Assembly (NCBI GenBank): GCA_026391975.1
Contig: JAPLDB010000082.1
Location: forward strand, 1-36,836
DNA: 36,836 nt
Origin: Bacteroidota bacterium
GTDB taxonomy: Bacteria; Bacteroidota; Bacteroidia; AKYH767-A; 2013-40CM-41-45
Direction of reading: 5' to 3'
Below the pieces are notes generated by a model that saw nothing but the letters and a program-made list of their open reading frames with translations, ran no database searches and had not been told where the DNA came from. Positions 9,671 to 34,201 of this stretch are shown here, piece by piece. The translations under genes and the position numbers were made by a program. Each line of letters starts with the position of its first letter. Position 1 is the stretch's first letter.

Positions 9671-9789
9671 ATATTTTCGAATTACTATTTTTCCTTTTGT
9701 CTTTTGTCTATTGATTTTTTCTTCTTTCTTCTTTACTCTTTACTCTTCCTTCTTCTAACTTTTTCCTTTTGACTTCTCACTTAGTACTT
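9671..9789 (-). repeat. Heptad-repeat spacer, 17 units, between the amidohydrolase genes
   Basis: The spacer runs exactly from the TAG stop of the upstream gene to the ATG of the downstream one and is 119 bp, or 17 x 7. Cut into heptads on the plus strand from 9671, 16 of 17 units end in TT, and ten consecutive units ending at 9789 end in CTT (TCTTCTT, TACTCTT, CTAACTT, TTGACTT and so on). On the coding strand this is an AAG at every seventh base. The spacer has no ORF and no -33/-7 promoter. Confidence 0.85.
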
Positions 9790-19617: not shown

Positions 19618-19694
19618 TGAATGTTAATTAACAATTTTATTTTTACCAAAGAGCATGGGAAAAACCAAAGAAGGCTAATAAACAGCCAAAACAA

Positions 19695-19772
19695 TTAACC
19701 ACGGAGGCACGGATCCCGATAGCTATCGGGAGCACAGAGCAAAACCTCCGTGGCTCTCCGTATCTCCGTGGT
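19695..19772. repeat. Inverted CCACGGAG-type repeat interrupted by a palindrome
   Basis: The left arm AACCACGGAGGCACGGA (19695-19711) pairs with the right arm TCTCCGTATCTCCGTGGTT (about 19753-19771), with about 15 of 17 positions complementary. CACGGA recurs 8 bp apart at 19698 and 19706, and CTCCGT recurs at 19744, 19754 and 19762. It could act as a bidirectional hairpin terminator for the DUF3820 gene, but there is no clean T-run. Confidence 0.7.
19712..19729. repeat. Perfect 18-bp palindrome nested in the CCACGGAG repeat
   Basis: TCCCGATAGCTATCGGGA is a perfect palindrome. Removing it leaves GGCACGGA joined to GCACAGAG, which restores a continuous repeat of the surrounding type, so it looks like a precise insertion into an older element. 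Confidence 0.75.
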
Positions 19773-19816
19773 TTCAGTCTTTTTTGTTTCTTCAATCGTA
19801 TCGGTGGTAAACGGAT

Positions 19817-20059
19817 CTATTTCTTCTTCTTCAAAGGCTCAAGCAAATATTCCAGCCCATTCAATTTGATTTCGTAAATCGTTTGCAACAACACACCCAA
19901 TTTACCTGTCGGAAAACCTTTTCGTTGAAACCATTCAAGATAAGATACCGGAAGATTGCACAGCAAGGTGTCTTTGTATCTTCCAAAGGGCATCTTCATG
20001 CTTACAATCTGCAATAGCATTGTTGAATCAACTCCGTTGCCTGTTTCGTTTTCATTCAT
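19817..20059 (-). CDS. DUF3820 family protein
   Basis: A small 80-residue protein with the DUF3820 (QSregVF_b) signature: MKMPFGRYKDTLLCNLPVSYLEWFQRKGFPTGKLG (about 22-56). That is the M-P-F-G-x-Y-K core followed by L-P-x-x-Y-L-x-W-F. No catalytic role is known for the family. Its ATG lies 3 bp after the rluF stop codon, so it is almost certainly translated from the same message. Confidence 0.85.
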   Translation of the reverse strand: MNENETGNGVDSTMLLQIVSMKMPFGRYKDTLLCNLPVSYLEWFQRKGFPTGKLGVLLQTIYEIKLNGLEYLLEPLKKKK

Positions 20060-20062
20060 AAT

Positions 20063-22517: not shown

Positions 22518-24398
22518 TCAGTTCAAAGCATCACCTCTTAAGGCACGGAATTTTTTTCTTGCATCGACAACATACAGGCTTCCGGGGAATTTCGTAAGCA
22601 GATCCTGGTAAAGCTCCATGGCTTTTGATTTGTCTTTGAATCGCTTCTCATAGAGTTCCGCCCGGTGAAACAGTGCATCATCAGCAAGTACGCCATCGTC
22701 ATACTGTTCTCCCAGTTTTCTCAGCAAGGAATCTTCTTCAGCATAATTTCTTTTTCCATCCATGATCATTGCTTTCTTATATAGAGAATATTGAATCAGA
22801 GAATGATCAGGAAAAGTCTGAATCAGTGAATCAATTGTATGCAATGCTTCATCTTTTCTGTTTCTGTATGCAAGCAGGTCGGCCTTCGAGTAAACAGTCA
22901 ATGCATCAAATGAAGAATCGGGTCCGGGGTTATCGGAAATAAGCAAGGCAAGTGCCAGCGCATCATTGGCGATCAATTGTGAGGTGGCAGTTTTCAGCAC
23001 ACCCAGCTGCGCTTCAGCCCATTGGAAATCTCCCCTGAAATAATCAAGACGTGCCCCGCGGAATTTAGCTTCCTGCCCAAGTGGATCATTCTTAAATGTT
23101 TTATCAACTTGTGCGTAGAGCAGGTCGCTGTCCCAAACATTGCCCGTAAATAAATAAATATCACCAAGCTCCAGCTTGCATTTGGCCTGTACTGCTTTAC
23201 TGATTCCAGGGTAATCAATGGCTGTCTCAAGATTGACAATCGCTGAATCAGTATTATCAAGATAAAATGCTTCAAGATGAGCAAGGCCACTGATCAAAGG
23301 AGCTGTTGTTGCGTCTCTTCCCAGTTCGTCCAGGGTTATCTTATATTCACTCTCCAGTTTTAGTAAATCGTCTTGTGTATAGCTGCCTTCACCTGTCAGG
23401 CTCTTATTTCTGACTTCAAGCAACTGCATTCTTGCAGTTATATAGTTTGAAGTGTTTTTTCCTTTATCAACAACATACTTGTAGCAATTGATCGCCGCAG
23501 GATAATCCAGGTTGGCTTCACTCATGCTTCCGATGTTCATGACACGGGAGCCGTCTTCGCGCAAACGCTTGTCCAGCGCTTTCGCCTGTATAAATGCACT
23601 TTCAAAATCTTTCTGCTGAACGAAAAGCCAGATCAGCATTTCAGAAAAAATACTCTGATCCGGATCACGTTGCGTTCTCCTCAATAGTGCTTGCCTTAGC
23701 AAGGTTGATCTTGAATTGTCAGGGTCATTCCCAATACGTGACTGTAATATATTCTGAACACTCTGAAGGTAAGCCTGATTTTCGGCAACTGCATTCAGGT
23801 ATTCGTCGATCATCTTTTCATATTCCTGTTTTTGGAAATATACTTCAGCGGTTTCAAAATTGAAGGAGTAGATGTTCCGCATCAGTTTTTTGCCTTCGGT
23901 GTAAGTGGCAAGGGCATAGTCCCAGTTCTGGTGACTGAAAAAAGCATTCGCCAGATTCATGATCTGTCCCTGGTCGGGTTGCAAACCCTTTATTGACTTA
24001 TCATATGTTTGTTTTGCCTTATTGATATCTCCTTTGGATTCAAAAACAAAACCAAGGTCAACAGCATAGGCAGTGTTCTCAGGATTTTTTTTCGAAATAT
24101 TTTTTACCAGTTTTTCCGCTGCATCGTAATTTCTCAGTGCAAGAAGACACTTCAGGTAATTGGGATACGTACCAAATGGGTCCTTGTCGTAGATCTTATC
24201 GTAGATCGTTGCCGCTTTGTCGTATTCAAAATTACTCATGTACTGATCTGCAAGCTGCCTGTTGCTAGTCGGCGGCTGTGCAATCAATGCTGTCGAAAGG
24301 AAAAACAGCAATAGTCCTAATGTAAAACAGGACTTATAAATAGAGCATGATAAATTAGAGAATGACAACAAATTGTTTTTTTGATTTAACAATAACAC
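22518..24398 (-). CDS. TPR-repeat exported protein
   Basis: A 626-residue protein with an N-terminal hydrophobic segment (FTLGLLLFFLSTALIAQ, about 26-42) acting as signal peptide, then tetratricopeptide repeats through most of the chain. Examples are RQLADQYMSNFEYDKAATIYDKIYDKDP, VDLGFVFESKGDINKAKQTYDKSIKGL and, near the end, HRAELYEKRFKDKSKAMELYQDLLTKFPGSLYVVDARKKFRAL. The role is probably protein-protein interaction in the periplasm. The start is a GTG directly after an in-frame TAG, and both lie inside the last unit of the octad array; TTG codons at residues 3, 10 or 11 are alternatives. It follows serS at a 64-bp distance. Confidence 0.85.
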   Translation of the reverse strand: MLLLNQKNNLLSFSNLSCSIYKSCFTLGLLLFFLSTALIAQPPTSNRQLADQYMSNFEYDKAATIYDKIYDKDPFGTYPNYLKCLLALRNYDAAEKLVKNISKKNPENTAYAVDLGFVFESKGDINKAKQTYDKSIKGLQPDQGQIMNLANAFFSHQNWDYALATYTEGKKLMRNIYSFNFETAEVYFQKQEYEKMIDEYLNAVAENQAYLQSVQNILQSRIGNDPDNSRSTLLRQALLRRTQRDPDQSIFSEMLIWLFVQQKDFESAFIQAKALDKRLREDGSRVMNIGSMSEANLDYPAAINCYKYVVDKGKNTSNYITARMQLLEVRNKSLTGEGSYTQDDLLKLESEYKITLDELGRDATTAPLISGLAHLEAFYLDNTDSAIVNLETAIDYPGISKAVQAKCKLELGDIYLFTGNVWDSDLLYAQVDKTFKNDPLGQEAKFRGARLDYFRGDFQWAEAQLGVLKTATSQLIANDALALALLISDNPGPDSSFDALTVYSKADLLAYRNRKDEALHTIDSLIQTFPDHSLIQYSLYKKAMIMDGKRNYAEEDSLLRKLGEQYDDGVLADDALFHRAELYEKRFKDKSKAMELYQDLLTKFPGSLYVVDARKKFRALRGDALN

Positions 24399-24458
24399 CT
24401 AACTACCTAACCACCTAACCACTTAATCACTTATTCACTTATTCACCTAATCACTTCT
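24395..24458 (-). repeat. Octad-repeat array, 8 units, between serS and the TPR gene
   Basis: Eight contiguous 8-bp units fill the gap. On the plus strand these are ACACCTAA, CTACCTAA, CCACCTAA, CCACTTAA, TCACTTAT, TCACTTAT, TCACCTAA, TCACTTCT. The pattern is NNACYTAW; on the coding strand it is WTARGTNN. The first unit contains the GTG start of the TPR gene and its upstream TAG. Confidence 0.85.
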
Positions 24459-24462
24459 TCTC

Positions 24463-25793: not shown

Positions 25794-27713
25794 TTATTGC
25801 TTAACGAATTTTGTGCGAAAAGACGTGGATCCTGAAGCCATTTCAAGATAATACATTCCTGAAGGCAACCCCCTGACATCAATACTGAATTCCTGATTCT
25901 TCTCTGCATATTCCCGCCCGATTTTCATCACCATTTCTCCAATCACATCATATACCGATATCTCAACCGCTGCTTCCCTTGTGATCCGGGGAGCAATCGG
26001 GAGTGCATTCTGAATTATTAATTTATCGCTAACCGGATTAGGGTACAAATTTATCCCCTCTCCTTTAGAGAAGGTAGGGGTGAGGCCTGCAACGACATTG
26101 TAAATCGCCGCCTCCAGCTCGCATCCATTGCTGTCGTTGCAAATCAAATTGTAATCACCGCTTGATTGTGCAACATAAAAATAATCTGTAGCCCCATTGA
26201 TGACGCTCCCATTCAGATACCACTGATAATTTACAAAACCCGTATTGGAGAACAATGTATCTCCACTCTGCTGAATAGCCTGTGGCGGACTTTGCGGAAA
26301 TACAGTGATGTAATTATTCAACGTGATGAGATCGGTTCCGTTTGTATTTGTCGCGATCAGCGTTACGTAATAGTTGCCGGGCGTATTGTAGCAAATGTTT
26401 TGCGGATCTGCTGCAGTACTTGATGATGGACTTCCGCCCGAAAAGATCCATTGATAAGAACTTGCATTGATAGAAAGATTTGTAAAATTTATACAGGATC
26501 TCGGACAAATTGTTTGATCTGAAGTTGTAAAAGCGGAAACCGGCAATGCACAACTTACTGTAGTGTTGGGATAGGCGAAATCGTCAAGAAATTCCGGAAG
26601 ACCATAGGAGACAGTTGCTCCGTTTAGATTAATTGCATTGGCAGTATAGTTAACCAAAGGCCCCGTTGAATCAGGGGTATTGATAACGCTTAGGTTATAG
26701 GGTGCTGCAGACATCACACAATATATTTTTCCATCAGGGCCAAGTTGCATACCCATGCAACCGGAGGCAGGAATGAAATACAATTGCTGCGTCTGAAAAT
26801 CATATTGCATAACCCCCTGAATGAAACCGGAACATCCGAAATAGACATACCTGCTGTTCGGTGAAAACGAAACACCGTAGTACCATTCTGCTGGACCGGG
26901 ATAAGTAACGGTTAAGAATGTATCTGCGTTCGAAATGTTTCCGTTTGAATTATCGAAGTCAAGAACCTCTGCATAGGGATGCTGTCCTTGTCCGTCAACG
27001 AGTGCAATCTTAGAATGATTAGGAGAAATTTTCATCTGGCCAAGGGAAGAAGCAGCCGTACCATCACCATGAACAATGCCGGTAGCGCTTGCAACGGTAT
27101 TGATGATTCCGCCGGCAGAGAGCTGAAAGGCATAGAAAATATCGGTGTAGTGTTTTTGCGTGACCACCCAATAGTCTGAGCCGTTGCTGTGTCTGCAAAC
27201 AGCAAGCTTTTCAGAAGCAGTATCCAGGAGATGAATGTTTTTAAATGCCGGCATCACATCACCATTGCCGCCATCAAGGCACATGTCCACGATAGAATAA
27301 TTCAGTCCATTCTGGAGCTGGTTGAGAAAATCATCTGTCGTAAAAACGTAGTACTTGCTCGGATCACCCGGCTTTGGAAGAATCACCGCAGACTGTGATG
27401 AAGATTGTCCGCCACCAATTGCCGTTCCGTCCGGCATTACATTGTGGAAACGATTGTACACCGTTTCACCATCAGTATAAAATAAAAGTTGCCCTGTACT
27501 ATCGCTGATCGCTGCACATCCTTCAATGTTGGTCGTATTGTTTTGAGTTTGTCCGTTGTTTACTACAACAGGCGCACCTAAACTGAAATCCAAACCGGCA
27601 TGAACACCAAAGTACCAATGGTTGGCTTGCTTTTGTGCTAATGCCGGCTTAACGCTTATCATGCAATAAAAACTGAGAAGCAAACCAATGATCCGTTGAA
27701 GAGTATTTTTCAT
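25794..27713 (-). CDS. Secreted PKD-domain protein with T9SS type A sorting domain
   Basis: A 639-residue exported protein (signal peptide about 1-26). Residues about 30-390 form a beta-propeller-like region starting NHWYFGVHAGLDFSLGAPVVVNNG. It contains NIEGCAAISDSTGQLLFYTDGETVYNR, a repeated pattern of the type common in Bacteroidota gliding/adhesion-related proteins. A PKD domain follows (about 395-475: SAFTTSDQTICPRSCINFTNLS...), then an Ig-like segment (QAIQQSGDTLFSNTGFVNYQWYLNGSVINGATDYFYVA). The T9SS domain begins at NLYPNPVSDKLIIQ and ends SFRTKFVKQ. Residues about 545-553 (TPTFSKGEG) come from a GC-rich repeat. Last of three tandem related genes, 11 bp after the kelch gene. Confidence 0.87.
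   Translation of the reverse strand: MKNTLQRIIGLLLSFYCMISVKPALAQKQANHWYFGVHAGLDFSLGAPVVVNNGQTQNNTTNIEGCAAISDSTGQLLFYTDGETVYNRFHNVMPDGTAIGGGQSSSQSAVILPKPGDPSKYYVFTTDDFLNQLQNGLNYSIVDMCLDGGNGDVMPAFKNIHLLDTASEKLAVCRHSNGSDYWVVTQKHYTDIFYAFQLSAGGIINTVASATGIVHGDGTAASSLGQMKISPNHSKIALVDGQGQHPYAEVLDFDNSNGNISNADTFLTVTYPGPAEWYYGVSFSPNSRYVYFGCSGFIQGVMQYDFQTQQLYFIPASGCMGMQLGPDGKIYCVMSAAPYNLSVINTPDSTGPLVNYTANAINLNGATVSYGLPEFLDDFAYPNTTVSCALPVSAFTTSDQTICPRSCINFTNLSINASSYQWIFSGGSPSSSTAADPQNICYNTPGNYYVTLIATNTNGTDLITLNNYITVFPQSPPQAIQQSGDTLFSNTGFVNYQWYLNGSVINGATDYFYVAQSSGDYNLICNDSNGCELEAAIYNVVAGLTPTFSKGEGINLYPNPVSDKLIIQNALPIAPRITREAAVEISVYDVIGEMVMKIGREYAEKNQEFSIDVRGLPSGMYYLEMASGSTSFRTKFVKQ
26050..26085 (-). repeat. 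Repeat-derived linker inside the PKD/T9SS gene
   Basis: The plus strand reads TCCCCTCTCC, TTTAGAGAAGG and TAGGGGTGAGG in succession, with the same overall shape (C-run, TTTAG, G-run, TAGGGG) as the GC-rich elements elsewhere in the window. It encodes LTPTFSKGEG between the Ig-like region and the sorting domain. The two neighbouring paralogues have unrelated linkers there. Confidence 0.6.
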
Positions 27714-27724
27714 CGGGAGTAAAA

Positions 27725-29788
27725 TTATTCTTTGATAAATTTAGCACGAAAAGTTTTTTCTCCCGACATTATTTCAATCCAATACATTCCCGATTGCAAG
27801 ATGCTTACATCAATAATTTCTTCATCATTTTCATTTAATGGCGGCAAAACTGTTAAAACTCTTTCACCTATCACATTGTAAACCGCAATTTTTAAGGCTG
27901 TTTCACTTTTAACTTCTAACTTTTGAATTTTGACTTTGTCACTTACTGGATTCGGATACACCACGATACCATTATTGCCAGTTACAACCTCTGCGTTGGC
28001 AACTACGTTAAACACCACCGCTTCCACCTCACACCCATTCCCATCCGTTGCCACCACATTGTAATCTCCACCGGAAGGTGCGACGTAAAAATAATCTGTT
28101 GCTCCTGAAATTAAGTTGCCATTGAAATACCATTGGTAAGATGTTGCTCCTGTATTTGCAAAAAGCGTATCGCCGCTCTGCGTAATTCCTTGTGGCGCCG
28201 GATATGGATAAACAATAATATAATTGGCAATGGTCAACGTGTCACTTCCGTTTGCATTGGTAACAATGAGTGTTACATCATAATTGCCGGGAGTAGTATA
28301 ACAAATGTTTAATGGATTTGCATCGGTACTTGTATTTGGTGTAGCACCGGGGAAACTCCATTCATAAGTAACAGCATTCAGCGATACACTTGTAAAGTCT
28401 GTACACGTTCCCGGACAAATATGATGCGGTGCAGTGAAAAGTGCCACAGGCATTTGCGGCTGGCAATATCCGGAGCAGCTGCTGTCTGGCGTAAATACCC
28501 AAAGATCACAAAGATAATTTGACCATGGCGCACGCGATCCACCGAACATATAAAACCTGTTGTCGATTCCCCACCATGCATCAGCACCGATGCGGGAGGA
28601 AGGCATATTTGCAGGAGATGAAACACCAAGTGTGCCGTAACTTCCTGCCTGATCAACAACATTTGTTCCACTCACCCAATTCCATTTTACCGTTGCAGGG
28701 TCAAATACCCAGAGGTCATTTAAAAATCCTCCAGCATTAAAAATCGCTCCGCCGAATAACCAGAACCTTCCGCAATTATCTGTAACTGATGAACGGTGTT
28801 CAAACCTTGAACGCGGCATATTGATACTGTCAAATACGCAATTGCTTTGATAGACTCCCGGATCATTATTGAAATTAGAACCATTCATCCATGTCCATTC
28901 ATTAATACCTGTATCGAATTTCCATACATCATTCTTACTCACGCCATCATAACTACCCAGTATCCAGAAATTGCCCTGCAGGTCTTTCCACTTTGCATGC
29001 GACCACCTACCTCCCGGAACATTGGTTGCATTTGAAACGCCTTTTACACCATAGCTGCTTGCCGCATTTGTAAATGCAGAGCCGCTCATCCATGTCCATT
29101 CATTAGTGCTGATTTCGTATTTCATCAGGTCATTCAAAAGTCCATTTGAACCCAGGTCGCCAAAACCATTTCCACCGAAAAGCCAAAGGTTATTTAATGA
29201 ATCTGTCCATGCAGAACACGTTTCAACTCTTCCTCCCGGATCATTCAAAGGACTTGGAACTCCCTGTACACCATGCACACCCGGAGGATTGTTAACAGTG
29301 GCCCCTCTCATCCACGTCCATTCATTGGTTGCAATTTCATAGCGCCAGAGATCATTCATAAACGTTCCACCGCACAACCATAAATTTCCGGTAGTATCAA
29401 CCCACGTTGGAATTCCTGAGATTCTGCTGCCAGGAGAATTTGTCAATGCAGGAACTCCCTGTATTCCGTAAACAGGCGCCTGACCGGCAATGCCGTTTCC
29501 TTTCACCCATGTCCATTCAAGGGTCGTAGGATTAAACTTCCACAAGTCATGGTAGCCCGTCCAGCCACTGTACACCCAGAAATTTCCCTGCTTGTCTTTC
29601 CATTCTATGTTTTCATACTCTGCAGGCGGATGATTATTGACTGACGGAATCCCCTGTGTTCCATAAACTCCAAGTGATCCGGATAGAGTGTCGCCACTGA
29701 TCCATGTCCATTCTCCCGCCTGACCAAATGAACTTTGAAGATTGAATATCAGAAATTGAAAAAGAAAAAATGATAGAATTTTTTTCAT
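27725..29788 (-). CDS. Secreted kelch-like propeller / PKD protein with T9SS type A sorting domain
   Basis: A 687-residue protein with signal peptide (MKKILSFFLFQFLIFNLQSSFGQ). About six kelch-like blades (25-420) repeat the pattern YGxxGVxxxxNxPGxR...WxDxxGNxWxFGG...NDLWKYxxxTNEWTWMxG. A PKD domain (about 430-510, PVALFTAPHHICPGTCTDFTSVSLNAVTYEWSF) and an Ig-like unit (GITQSGDTLFANTGATSYQWYFNGNLISGATDYFYVA) follow. The type A sorting domain IVVYPNPVSDKVKIQ...ETFRAKFIKE closes the chain. It lies 23 bp after its paralogue at 29812-31905. Probably a surface adhesin or glycan-binding protein; this is inference from fold and T9SS signal. Confidence 0.88.
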   Translation of the reverse strand: MKKILSFFLFQFLIFNLQSSFGQAGEWTWISGDTLSGSLGVYGTQGIPSVNNHPPAEYENIEWKDKQGNFWVYSGWTGYHDLWKFNPTTLEWTWVKGNGIAGQAPVYGIQGVPALTNSPGSRISGIPTWVDTTGNLWLCGGTFMNDLWRYEIATNEWTWMRGATVNNPPGVHGVQGVPSPLNDPGGRVETCSAWTDSLNNLWLFGGNGFGDLGSNGLLNDLMKYEISTNEWTWMSGSAFTNAASSYGVKGVSNATNVPGGRWSHAKWKDLQGNFWILGSYDGVSKNDVWKFDTGINEWTWMNGSNFNNDPGVYQSNCVFDSINMPRSRFEHRSSVTDNCGRFWLFGGAIFNAGGFLNDLWVFDPATVKWNWVSGTNVVDQAGSYGTLGVSSPANMPSSRIGADAWWGIDNRFYMFGGSRAPWSNYLCDLWVFTPDSSCSGYCQPQMPVALFTAPHHICPGTCTDFTSVSLNAVTYEWSFPGATPNTSTDANPLNICYTTPGNYDVTLIVTNANGSDTLTIANYIIVYPYPAPQGITQSGDTLFANTGATSYQWYFNGNLISGATDYFYVAPSGGDYNVVATDGNGCEVEAVVFNVVANAEVVTGNNGIVVYPNPVSDKVKIQKLEVKSETALKIAVYNVIGERVLTVLPPLNENDEEIIDVSILQSGMYWIEIMSGEKTFRAKFIKE
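27903..27937 (-). repeat. Five in-frame heptads within the T9SS domain of the middle paralogue
   Basis: The coding strand reads AAAGTCA, AAATTCA, AAAGTTA, GAAGTTA, AAAGTGA in exact register, giving the KVKIQKLEVKSE peptide in the first strands of the sorting domain. The unit resembles the intergenic heptads of this window (AAG every seventh base). Confidence 0.7.
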
Positions 29789-29811
29789 GTCAGTTAACTT
29801 ATCTCTGCTGT

Positions 29812-31905
29812 TTATCGATTACCGGCCTTTATAAATTTACTCCTGAATATTTTCTCCCCTGATTTTATTTCCAGCCAGTACATGCCTGAGTGCAATTCAC
29901 CAACATCAATAATTTGTTGTTCATCTTCATTTATTTGTGTTAAAACATTCAAAACTCTTTCTCCGATCATATTGTAAATCGCAATTTCTAAGGCTGTTTC
30001 ACTTTTGACTTTTAACTTCTGAATTTTGACTTTGTCCTCAACCGGATTCGGAAACACTTGCATACTGCTGCTGCCTACTGCCGCTTGGGCGCTCGCCAGC
30101 ACGTTGAACACCGCCGCCTCCACCTCACACCCATTCCCGTCCGTTGCCACCACATTATAATCTCCACCGGATAGTGCTACATAAAAATAATCTGTTGCTC
30201 CGTTAATAATGTTTGTGTTGAAGTACCATTGATAAGTTGACGCTCCAGCAATTGCAAAAAGTGTATCGCCGTCTTGCGTGATGGATTGCGGAGGTGGAGT
30301 TGGATAAACAGTAATATAATTATTGAGGGTGAGTGTGTCACTTCCGCCTGCATTGGTTGCTATCAGCGTTACAGTGTAACTGCCCGGTGTGTTGTAGCAA
30401 ATATTTGTCGGACTGACGTCTGTGCTCGTCGATGGATTTGCGCCTGTAAATGTCCATTGGTAGGATGTTGCATTCACGGTAAGATTGCTGAAACTCGTAC
30501 ATGTGCCCGGACATAATACTGTATCAGCAGAAAAATAATTTACTGTGATCGCAGTTGGATTGCATTTGGTGCAAGTGCTGTCAGGAACGTATTTCCATAG
30601 ATCACTATAAAAGTTGGTTGAAAGGTTATCAAGTCCTCCGTAAAACCAAAAGTTTCCTTGTGTATCGGTCCATGTACAGCCACCACACCTGCCCCCTGGT
30701 TCGTTCGCAGCGCTTGAAACTCCCATGGTTCCCCACACCGGCGATAGGTATGCTGATGTCCCACGGAGCAATTTCCAGGTGTTTGTTGGGATATTATATT
30801 GCCATAGATCAGTAAGAAAATTGTTCCCGATTCCACTGAAGATGTAAAAGTTACTACATGCATCTTTCCAGCAATATGAACCTTCAAATCGGTACTGAGG
30901 AACAAATGCAGAATTTGTATCACATAATGGACCATAGAAACCGGCATTGCCACCTGAACTGGAACCACTCACCCAAGTCCATTCATTTATAGACGGATTA
31001 TATTTCCACATATCATTAAAACTTCCTGAGAAACCTGACCTTCCGCCGAACATCCAGAGATTGCCAGTATCATCAGTCCAGTTAGAATAAATCCAATGTG
31101 GAGGTGGTTCATTTAATGGAGAAGACACGCCTTTTACACCGTACGTACCCACCGTTGTGTTTACGTTTGAGCCACGCAACCAAACCCATTCATTTGTGGA
31201 TGGATCGTATTTCCAAAGATCGTTTCTATTGGAAGCGTCATAAAGATAACCTCCATCAAGGTAAAAATTTCCATTCAGGTCAACCCATGTACACCTTGTT
31301 TCTCCTCTGGAAGGTGGATTATTTGTTGGGGATGGAACGCCCATAATCCCGTAGTTGCCTGTATCAATTGCAACAGGACTCCCTTTCATCCATGCCCATT
31401 CATTACTTGCAATATTGTATTTCCAGAGATCATCAAGGTGACCATAATTACCGGAACTGTCTCTGCCCTGACTCCCAAAAACCCAAAGGTCTCCGTTCAG
31501 ATCTTTCCAGAATGCACTACCCCAGGAACGGCTTCCGGGATGATTCGCCGCTGCCGGGATTCCTTGAGTCCCATAAACTCCTTTGCTATTCGGAGTATTG
31601 GGTCCGTTCATCCATGTCCACTCATTGGTGGCTGGGTCATAACACCACATCGCGCAGTATCCGTTAAGTCCTGATTTCGATCCGCCGAATAACCAGAATT
31701 TTCCTGTTGCGTCTATCCATGAACAGGCTTCGTAAAGGGGCGGTGGATGATTCAGCGGATCAGGAACGCCTTGAACTCCGAAATATCCTGACTGATTCAG
31801 AATAGAATCACCTTTCATCCATGTCCATTCCCCTGCCTGACCAAATGAATATTGAAGATTAAATAGGAGAAATTGAAAAAAGAGAAGTGTTATTGTTTTT
31901 TTCAT
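29812..31905 (-). CDS. Secreted kelch-like propeller / PKD protein with T9SS type A sorting domain (paralogue)
   Basis: A 697-residue paralogue of the 27725-29788 product, with the same order: signal peptide (MKKTITLLFFQFLLFNLQYSFGQ), six or so kelch-like blades with TNEWTWMxG and GNxWxFGG repeats, PKD domain (NYFSADTVLCPGTCTSFSNLTVNATSYQWTF), Ig-like unit with QSITQDGDTLF...GATDYFYVA, and a sorting domain VFPNPVEDKVKIQ. The C-terminus extends four residues past the usual end (KFIKAGNR). First gene of the three-gene T9SS cargo operon; a strong TTG-N19-TACTTTTG promoter lies just upstream. Confidence 0.88.
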   Translation of the reverse strand: MKKTITLLFFQFLLFNLQYSFGQAGEWTWMKGDSILNQSGYFGVQGVPDPLNHPPPLYEACSWIDATGKFWLFGGSKSGLNGYCAMWCYDPATNEWTWMNGPNTPNSKGVYGTQGIPAAANHPGSRSWGSAFWKDLNGDLWVFGSQGRDSSGNYGHLDDLWKYNIASNEWAWMKGSPVAIDTGNYGIMGVPSPTNNPPSRGETRCTWVDLNGNFYLDGGYLYDASNRNDLWKYDPSTNEWVWLRGSNVNTTVGTYGVKGVSSPLNEPPPHWIYSNWTDDTGNLWMFGGRSGFSGSFNDMWKYNPSINEWTWVSGSSSGGNAGFYGPLCDTNSAFVPQYRFEGSYCWKDACSNFYIFSGIGNNFLTDLWQYNIPTNTWKLLRGTSAYLSPVWGTMGVSSAANEPGGRCGGCTWTDTQGNFWFYGGLDNLSTNFYSDLWKYVPDSTCTKCNPTAITVNYFSADTVLCPGTCTSFSNLTVNATSYQWTFTGANPSTSTDVSPTNICYNTPGSYTVTLIATNAGGSDTLTLNNYITVYPTPPPQSITQDGDTLFAIAGASTYQWYFNTNIINGATDYFYVALSGGDYNVVATDGNGCEVEAAVFNVLASAQAAVGSSSMQVFPNPVEDKVKIQKLKVKSETALEIAIYNMIGERVLNVLTQINEDEQQIIDVGELHSGMYWLEIKSGEKIFRSKFIKAGNR
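29999..30033 (-). repeat. Five in-frame heptads within the T9SS domain of the first paralogue
   Basis: Coding strand AAAGTCA, AAATTCA, GAAGTTA, AAAGTCA, AAAGTGA, at the same position in the protein as in the paralogue at 27903-27937, with two units changed. It encodes KVKIQKLKVKSE. Confidence 0.7.
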
Positions 31906-32059: not shown

Positions 32060-33808
<1,749 letters not shown>

Positions 33809-33817
33809 ATTATAAAA

Positions 33818-33913
33818 AGTTCAATAGTTTGGAAGTTCAAAAGTTCAATGGCTGTAGACATCTCTTATAACCCTTGAACTTTTAAACTCTTAAACTTTTG
33901 AACTCTCTGCAAC
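33818..33913 (+). repeat. Octad array forming a long inverted repeat between atpD and atpC
   Basis: 96 bp, or 12 octads. The left four units are AGTTCAAT, AGTTTGGA, AGTTCAAA, AGTTCAAT (33818-33849). A 24-bp centre follows, then TTGAACTT, TTAAACTC, TTAAACTT, TTGAACTC (33874-33905) and TCTGCAAC up against the ATG. The left and right groups are reverse complements in most positions, so the transcript can fold into a stem of roughly 32-36 bp just before atpC. Confidence 0.85.
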
Positions 33914-34147
33914 ATGCATCTCGACATAATCACCCCCGATAAAAAAATCTACTCAGGCGAGGTAACCTCCGTCTCTGTTCCCGGAACAGGCGGTCGTTTT
34001 CAGATTTTAAAAAACCACGCCCCAATCATTTCTTCTTTAATGGGAGGAAAAATAAAAGTGGAGGACAGCGAAGGCTCAAAAGAATTTGATGTCAAGGGTG
34101 GAGTAGTGGAGAACCTCAAAAATAATGTGATCATCCTGGCAGAGTAA
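33914..34147 (+). CDS. atpC: F1Fo ATP synthase subunit epsilon, short form
   Basis: A 77-residue protein equal to the N-terminal beta-sandwich of the epsilon subunit (MHLDIITPDKKIYSGEVTSVSVPGTGGRFQILKNHAPIISSLMGGKIKV...). It contacts gamma and the c-ring in the central stalk. The C-terminal two-helix domain of the usual 130-140-residue form, which can inhibit ATP hydrolysis, is absent; the stop is followed directly by a terminator, so it is not a frameshift. It lies 105 bp after atpD and is the last gene of the operon. Short epsilon subunits are usual in Bacteroidota. Confidence 0.93.
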   Translation: MHLDIITPDKKIYSGEVTSVSVPGTGGRFQILKNHAPIISSLMGGKIKVEDSEGSKEFDVKGGVVENLKNNVIILAE

Positions 34148-34173
34148 ATTAGAGTCAGGAAAAAAGAATCAAG

Positions 34174-34201
34174 AAGGACGTTCATTTGAGCGTCCTTTTT
34201 T
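34174..34201 (+). terminator. Rho-independent terminator of atpD-atpC
   Basis: AAGGACG (34174-34180), a 10-nt loop TTCATTTGAG, then CGTCCTT (34191-34197) running into TTTTTT (34196-34201). The 7-bp stem followed by a T-run, 27 bp after the atpC stop, is a textbook terminator. Confidence 0.88.

Follow-up and report, generated by a model that had tools for sequence, protein, structure and literature searches.

The spacer between atpD and atpC, which encode the F1 beta and epsilon subunits, is occupied in a Bacteroidota genome by a long hairpin built from two inverted arrays of one short repeat unit. Hairpins of this structure recur with unrelated sequences, lie shortly after the upstream stop codon, share an arm composition and have slowly evolving arms; at atpD-atpC, comparison of genomes indicates that place and structure are kept while sequence is replaced. 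We tentatively favor, at somewhat below an even chance, the interpretation that the hairpin is a stop-anchored mRNA segment boundary protecting the upstream message. The window, that is, the whole stretch of DNA analyzed here (36,836 nt), is contig JAPLDB010000082.1 of Bacteroidota bacterium GCA_026391975.1, a draft genome of 3.6 Mb in 239 contigs.

All features of the junction lie on the plus strand. The upstream cistron, atpD (32306-33808), is an ORF that ends with a TAA stop at 33806-33808, and its C-terminal part is 86-95% identical among relatives in sequence comparison. The 5' array (33818-33848), a tandem repeat of period 8 (AGTTCAAt AGTTTGGa AGTTCAAa AGTTCAA), forms the G-type, C-poor arm. 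An earlier sequence-only reading had counted four AGTTCAAN units in it; read directly, three are exact (AGTTCAA at 33818, 33834, and 33842) and one is degenerate (AGTTTGG at 33826). A center with a partly paired inner stem and a loop (33849-33873) is followed by the inverted 3' array (33874-33904; TTGAACTt TTAAACTc TTAAACTt TTGAACT), the C-type, G-poor arm. The four right-hand units of that reading are two TTGAACT (33874 and 33898) and two TTAAACT (33882 and 33890), and the arrays stand 25 nt apart rather than 24.

Folding the region, as had been proposed with the earlier reading, gave 36 nested pairs between 33818 and 33904, with a minimum free energy of -37.5 kcal/mol and a z-score of -4.94 that none of 200 shuffles equaled. 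This bears out the predicted stem of more than 30 bp ending near the atpC start. The repeat search returned 39-nt arms with 79% complementarity, and a strand-symmetric Watson-Crick score of 16 on the 105-nt spacer was reached by 0 of 2000 dinucleotide shuffles. By the same score, this is the highest-ranking 120-nt hairpin of the whole 36.8-kb contig. These results confirm that the hairpin is real and far beyond chance.

Nine nucleotides separate the hairpin from the atpD stop on one side and from the atpC ATG (33914) on the other, the latter forming a 9-nt leader outside the fold (33905-33913). The downstream cistron, atpC (33914-34147, 77 aa), was identified by its ORF and conserved start context, and the terminator search placed a probable intrinsic terminator of atpDC, a 13-pair stem followed by a T-run, at 34171-34200. 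Because the terminator of the transcript comes after atpC, the hairpin lies inside an apparent two-gene operon; gene order, spacing, and the terminator's position only after atpC suggest that the two genes are cotranscribed. The hairpin has no U-tract 3' of its stem and is absent from the terminator-like sites, its tail being CTCTGCAAC. It is stable and sits close after the upstream stop within a probably cotranscribed pair, as a 3'-protective hairpin would.

Several other identities were considered and rejected. The G+C-rich stem and T-run of an intrinsic terminator are lacking at the hairpin and present after atpC. No internal Bacteroidota promoter (TTTG/TAnnTTTG) was found in the spacer. 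The octad has too few copies for a single-sequence element dispersed genome-wide. REP and BIME elements are intergenic palindromes able to stabilize upstream mRNA, and REPs form one high-copy, GC-rich family. The present element is likewise an intergenic palindrome, but each locus here has its own AT-rich unit; the doubled octad occurs at only four exact places in 3.6 Mb, and other loci use other units. TAACTGA heptamers of Beggiatoaceae, Cyanobacteria, and some Bacteroidetes (PMC4679880) also form intergenic heptad arrays near gene boundaries. However, they are direct repeats of one fixed unit, mostly just 5' of starts and reportedly structureless, whereas the units described here are private to their lineages and inverted, and the window's unit is a different one.

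Across relatives, the junction was examined in a family sample of 11 genomes, in which the window genome is the sole representative of its genus. Seven of the 11 junctions are long and carry hairpins whose units all differ, for example GTTGAAC/GTTCAAC heptads (G006), GTTTAAGG (G005), and ACGAATGTT (G001). The other four are 26-39 nt long and hairpin-free, as is every further junction read within the order. The same two states were seen among 75 named Bacteroidota genomes, with spacers either of at most 39 nt and no hairpin or of 60-188 nt and mostly a head-to-head array. In Pedobacter, 58 of 70 junctions are at least 50 nt long, and z is below -3 in 44 of those 58; all 30 Mucilaginibacter junctions are long, and z falls below -3 in 29. 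Pooled over the named Bacteroidota, 104 of 116 long junctions score 12 or more, compared with about 10% of shuffles. Clustering at 65% identity separates at least 28 unrelated arm families at this one junction, and no atpD-atpC spacer shorter than 46 nt in the family, the named Bacteroidota, or Pedobacter holds a hairpin. The inverted arrangement has not been lost in relatives; it is rebuilt there from other repeat units.

Further inverted arrays with other units occur in sampled stretches of the window genome and of G006. Within at most about 20 kb around atpD in the named genomes, array hairpins, by thresholds fixed after the first examples had been seen, occupy 16 of 32 atpDC spacers of 50-200 nt versus 16 of 283 other codirectional spacers, 1 of 54 convergent, and 2 of 73 divergent ones. 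A strand-symmetric criterion, applied with Pedobacter atpDC left out, gave 65/825 codirectional, 3/98 convergent, and 1/129 divergent spacers. These counts come from genes called with our own codon model, which sets some spacer ends wrongly, and from genomes that are samples of non-independent species. A control on two E. coli stretches (90 kb) yielded no array hairpin in 22 codirectional spacers.

In the S10-spc ribosomal-protein operons of 31 genomes, array hairpins are found repeatedly at a shared set of junctions across lineages, with gene names assigned from the encoded ends rather than by family search. The rpsN-rpsH junction carries one in 11 genomes, including a weaker one in the window genome (L196:9938), and rpoA-rplQ, rpsM-rpsK, rplP-rpmC, rpmJ-rpsM, and rpsD-rpoA are also recurrent. 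With more reserve than for the window's own hairpin, we suggest that these elements might represent an undescribed, phylum-wide Bacteroidota class of stop-anchored hairpins, made from lineage-private repeats of about 7 nt, that would set mRNA boundaries in multi-subunit operons such as those of ATP synthase and the ribosome.

The hairpins share a common anatomy. A repeat period of 7 fits best in 233 of 266 arms, which makes the window's period of 8 a minority form. Of 131 cases that could be decided, 126 have a 5' arm poor in C and a 3' arm poor in G, a polarity on which the remaining hairpins of these spacers divide evenly (87:87). The seven family atpDC hairpins taken alone split 4:3, which is not significant, and the window's own element conforms. 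Segregating G and C to opposite arms prevents local folding inside one arm. This polarity does not prove that the hairpins depend on transcription, since a G-rich left arm and a C-rich right arm look identical from either strand. Hairpins start a median of 7 nt past the upstream stop, and their distance to the next start ranges broadly from 2 to more than 100 nt. At Pedobacter rpsN-rpsH, hairpin and start are separated by a conserved leader of about 70 nt, which is preceded by arms from more than one family. Since the stop distance is steady, the start distance broad, and a conserved leader can intervene, the upstream gene appears to be the anchor.

Conserved leader-like sequences were also observed 5' of both rpsH and rplQ in Pedobacter and Mucilaginibacter (L200:9560-9628, L208:2113-2272, and equivalents); they are possibly autoregulatory sites of ribosomal proteins. 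Rfam 15 gave no match at the gathering score in the window, in L200 including its leader, in L211, or in L195.

To what extent the arms are constrained was assessed in five Pedobacter clades that differ in their unit. Divergence of arms, loops, and fourfold sites of atpC was 0.086/0.342/0.345, 0.184/0.286/0.354, 0.020/0.201/0.421, 0.071/0.372/0.436, and 0.072/0.260/0.291, respectively. The ranges are 2-18% for arms, 20-37% for loops, and 29-44% for fourfold sites, where apparent arm divergence may be lowered by the difficulty of aligning arrays and arm columns were picked on each clade's consensus. This pattern indicates that arms are constrained and loops close to neutral.

Pairing in the sense RNA left little trace. 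Single-sided mismatches over all array stems comprise 44 G-U and 49 A-C, and recent changes 18 G-U and 15 A-C, as against 21 G-U and 0 A-C in a terminator control that is partly helped by its U-tract. Only 1 pair-keeping double change was found versus 66 single-sided ones, the paired register is barely above off-register (21/34), and compensatory covariation is weak, two Pedobacter alignments yielding 0 and 3 such pairs. The wobble-strand test was negative and gives no proof that selection acts on the RNA. Single mismatches of any kind may be tolerated in a stem of 25-39 pairs, which would weaken such a test. As judged from these comparisons, the constraint on the arms is not visibly on sense-RNA pairing and may have a DNA-level or sequence-specific cause.

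In the segment-boundary model, the two inverted arrays would fill the untranslated spacer from just past the atpD stop codon up to some 10 nt short of atpC and, as a hairpin that is no terminator, would render this ribosome-free spacer double-stranded in the mRNA. After a downstream cleavage, the hairpin would block 3'-to-5' exonucleases, and the atpD segment would outlast atpC, leading to unequal expression of the two genes and possibly to a changed beta:epsilon ratio. We favor this model because of the position after the stop, the missing U-tract, the near-absence from divergent spacers, and precedents at malE-malF, in puf, and in E. coli, where mRNA segments end just after stable hairpins without a U-tract (PMC5927463). 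Against it stand the lack of a G-U over A-C preference, the rarity of double changes, the slight register effect, and the many hairpin-free relatives. Between the two functions offered by the sequence-only reading, stabilization of the upstream message fits the stop-anchored position (median 7 nt) better.

Its other proposal, lowered atpC translation to match a 3:1 ratio of beta to epsilon, found no specific support: the element also lies at junctions of ribosomal-protein genes, and in many relatives the atpD-atpC spacer is short and has no hairpin. An atpC-specific reading is too narrow. The underlying mechanism, in which the hairpin buries the region 5' of atpC and yields less epsilon than beta, seems improbable. 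The stem does end 9 nt from the ATG, Bacteroidota translation initiation is reported to be tuned by mRNA structure (PMC6847099), and mRNA structure in E. coli uncDC reportedly governs uncC expression (Dallmann and Dunn 1994, cited in PMC11124002). However, the final 10 nt or so before atpC are left out of the stem, relatives whose spacers are short and open manage without such control, and the ribosomal cases, whose elements often end 50-90 nt short of the start, would go unexplained. The latter also bear on the idea that the hairpin loops out the spacer and keeps stop and next start close for reinitiation or coupling. At atpDC the unpaired flanks together measure about 10-30 nt, comparable to the short spacers seen in relatives, yet 50-140 nt are left between hairpin and start in rpsN-rpsH and rpoA-rplQ, and we consider this idea very improbable.

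The main rival is a functionless DNA-level process, in which heptad or octad slippage and fold-back template switching generate the arrays in spacers that hold no promoter or other needed sequence. Private units in each lineage, the lack of wobble asymmetry, arrays without a partner arm, and arrays in convergent spacers (3/98) are all consistent with such an origin, and heptanucleotide repeats have been tied to polymerase slippage (Mrazek 2007, cited in PMC4679880). We nevertheless judge it unlikely: arms diverge less than loops and fourfold sites, the paired double changes expected from template-switch correction are nearly absent, and the same orthologous junctions are affected repeatedly, atpDC far above other codirectional spacers. 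Arm conservation without compensation or wobble bias, together with a unit of about 7 nt in most arms, could also mean that the arms are sequence-specific RNA or DNA sites for a repeat-binding protein, with pairing secondary; for TAACTGA heptads close to start codons, a post-transcriptional binding protein has been proposed (PMC4679880). Here, a separate specificity would be required for each of the 28 or more unrelated arm families at a single junction, and only the C-poor/G-poor polarity is common to the arms, which leaves this reading with a small probability, slightly below that of translational control.

Compared with the segment-boundary model, known 3'-protective hairpins (malE-malF, puf, and genome-wide in E. 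coli; PMC5927463) likewise follow the upstream cistron in an operon, lack a U-tract, and are proposed to protect against 3'-5' decay. The present hairpins differ in being inverted arrays of a private unit of about 7-8 nt, with G and C in opposite arms and turnover among species at one junction, and their effect on decay is inferred; moreover, most E. coli protective structures lie inside the downstream gene, unlike here. In the parts covered of work on Clostridium cellulolyticum (PMC4423207), selective RNA processing and stabilization involves stem-loops at gene 3' ends in operons for protein complexes, F-type ATPase included. Processing sites and transcript ratios were measured in that work, and the parts covered report no inverted heptad arrays. 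E. coli uncDC (Dallmann and Dunn 1994, cited in PMC11124002) concerns the same gene pair, with mRNA structure reportedly governing the downstream gene. Its atpD-atpC spacer is only 20 nt, which cannot hold a spacer-filling array hairpin, and the two are not homologous. Searches of the open-access literature turned up no account of inverted heptad arrays in Bacteroidota.

If the segment-boundary model is true, these hairpins would be a simple, evolvable module that separates genes in the operons of a major phylum that lacks Shine-Dalgarno signals, and would explain unequal subunit amounts from one message. Sequence-based RNA searches would miss the module because each lineage writes a different repeat. 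Convergent evolution could then be followed as a natural experiment at one junction, which unrelated arrays have occupied many times over. If functionless, the hairpins would still reveal a strong mutational process building inverted heptads at gene boundaries.

Additional repeats were observed in the window. A G-free direct heptad array of about 100 nt (CTCAATA and relatives) in the divergent spacer at 32202-32305 adjoins the atpD ATG (32306); it has the polarity of 3' arms of the hairpin class, and no partner arm was found. On the minus-strand transcript, a C-free octad array (AAGTGATTAGGTGAAT...) at 24395-24462 follows right after the stop of a serS-like gene, again without a partner arm, and a purine-rich array at 9671-9789 resembles it. 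The spacer 19618-20062 contains an inverted repeat of period-8 appearance, AACCACGGAGGCACGGA (19697-19713) and TCCGTATCTCCGTGGTT (19757-19773).

A second AtpD-like beta subunit, 48-49% identical, is encoded in Pedobacter and Mucilaginibacter genomes G069, G180, G210, G220, and G229, which suggests a second rotary ATPase in some species. Finally, the minus strand of the window at 25794-31905 encodes consecutive large, secreted-looking proteins with GEWTWM-type repeated motifs and similar C-terminal ends, which are probably recent paralogues.
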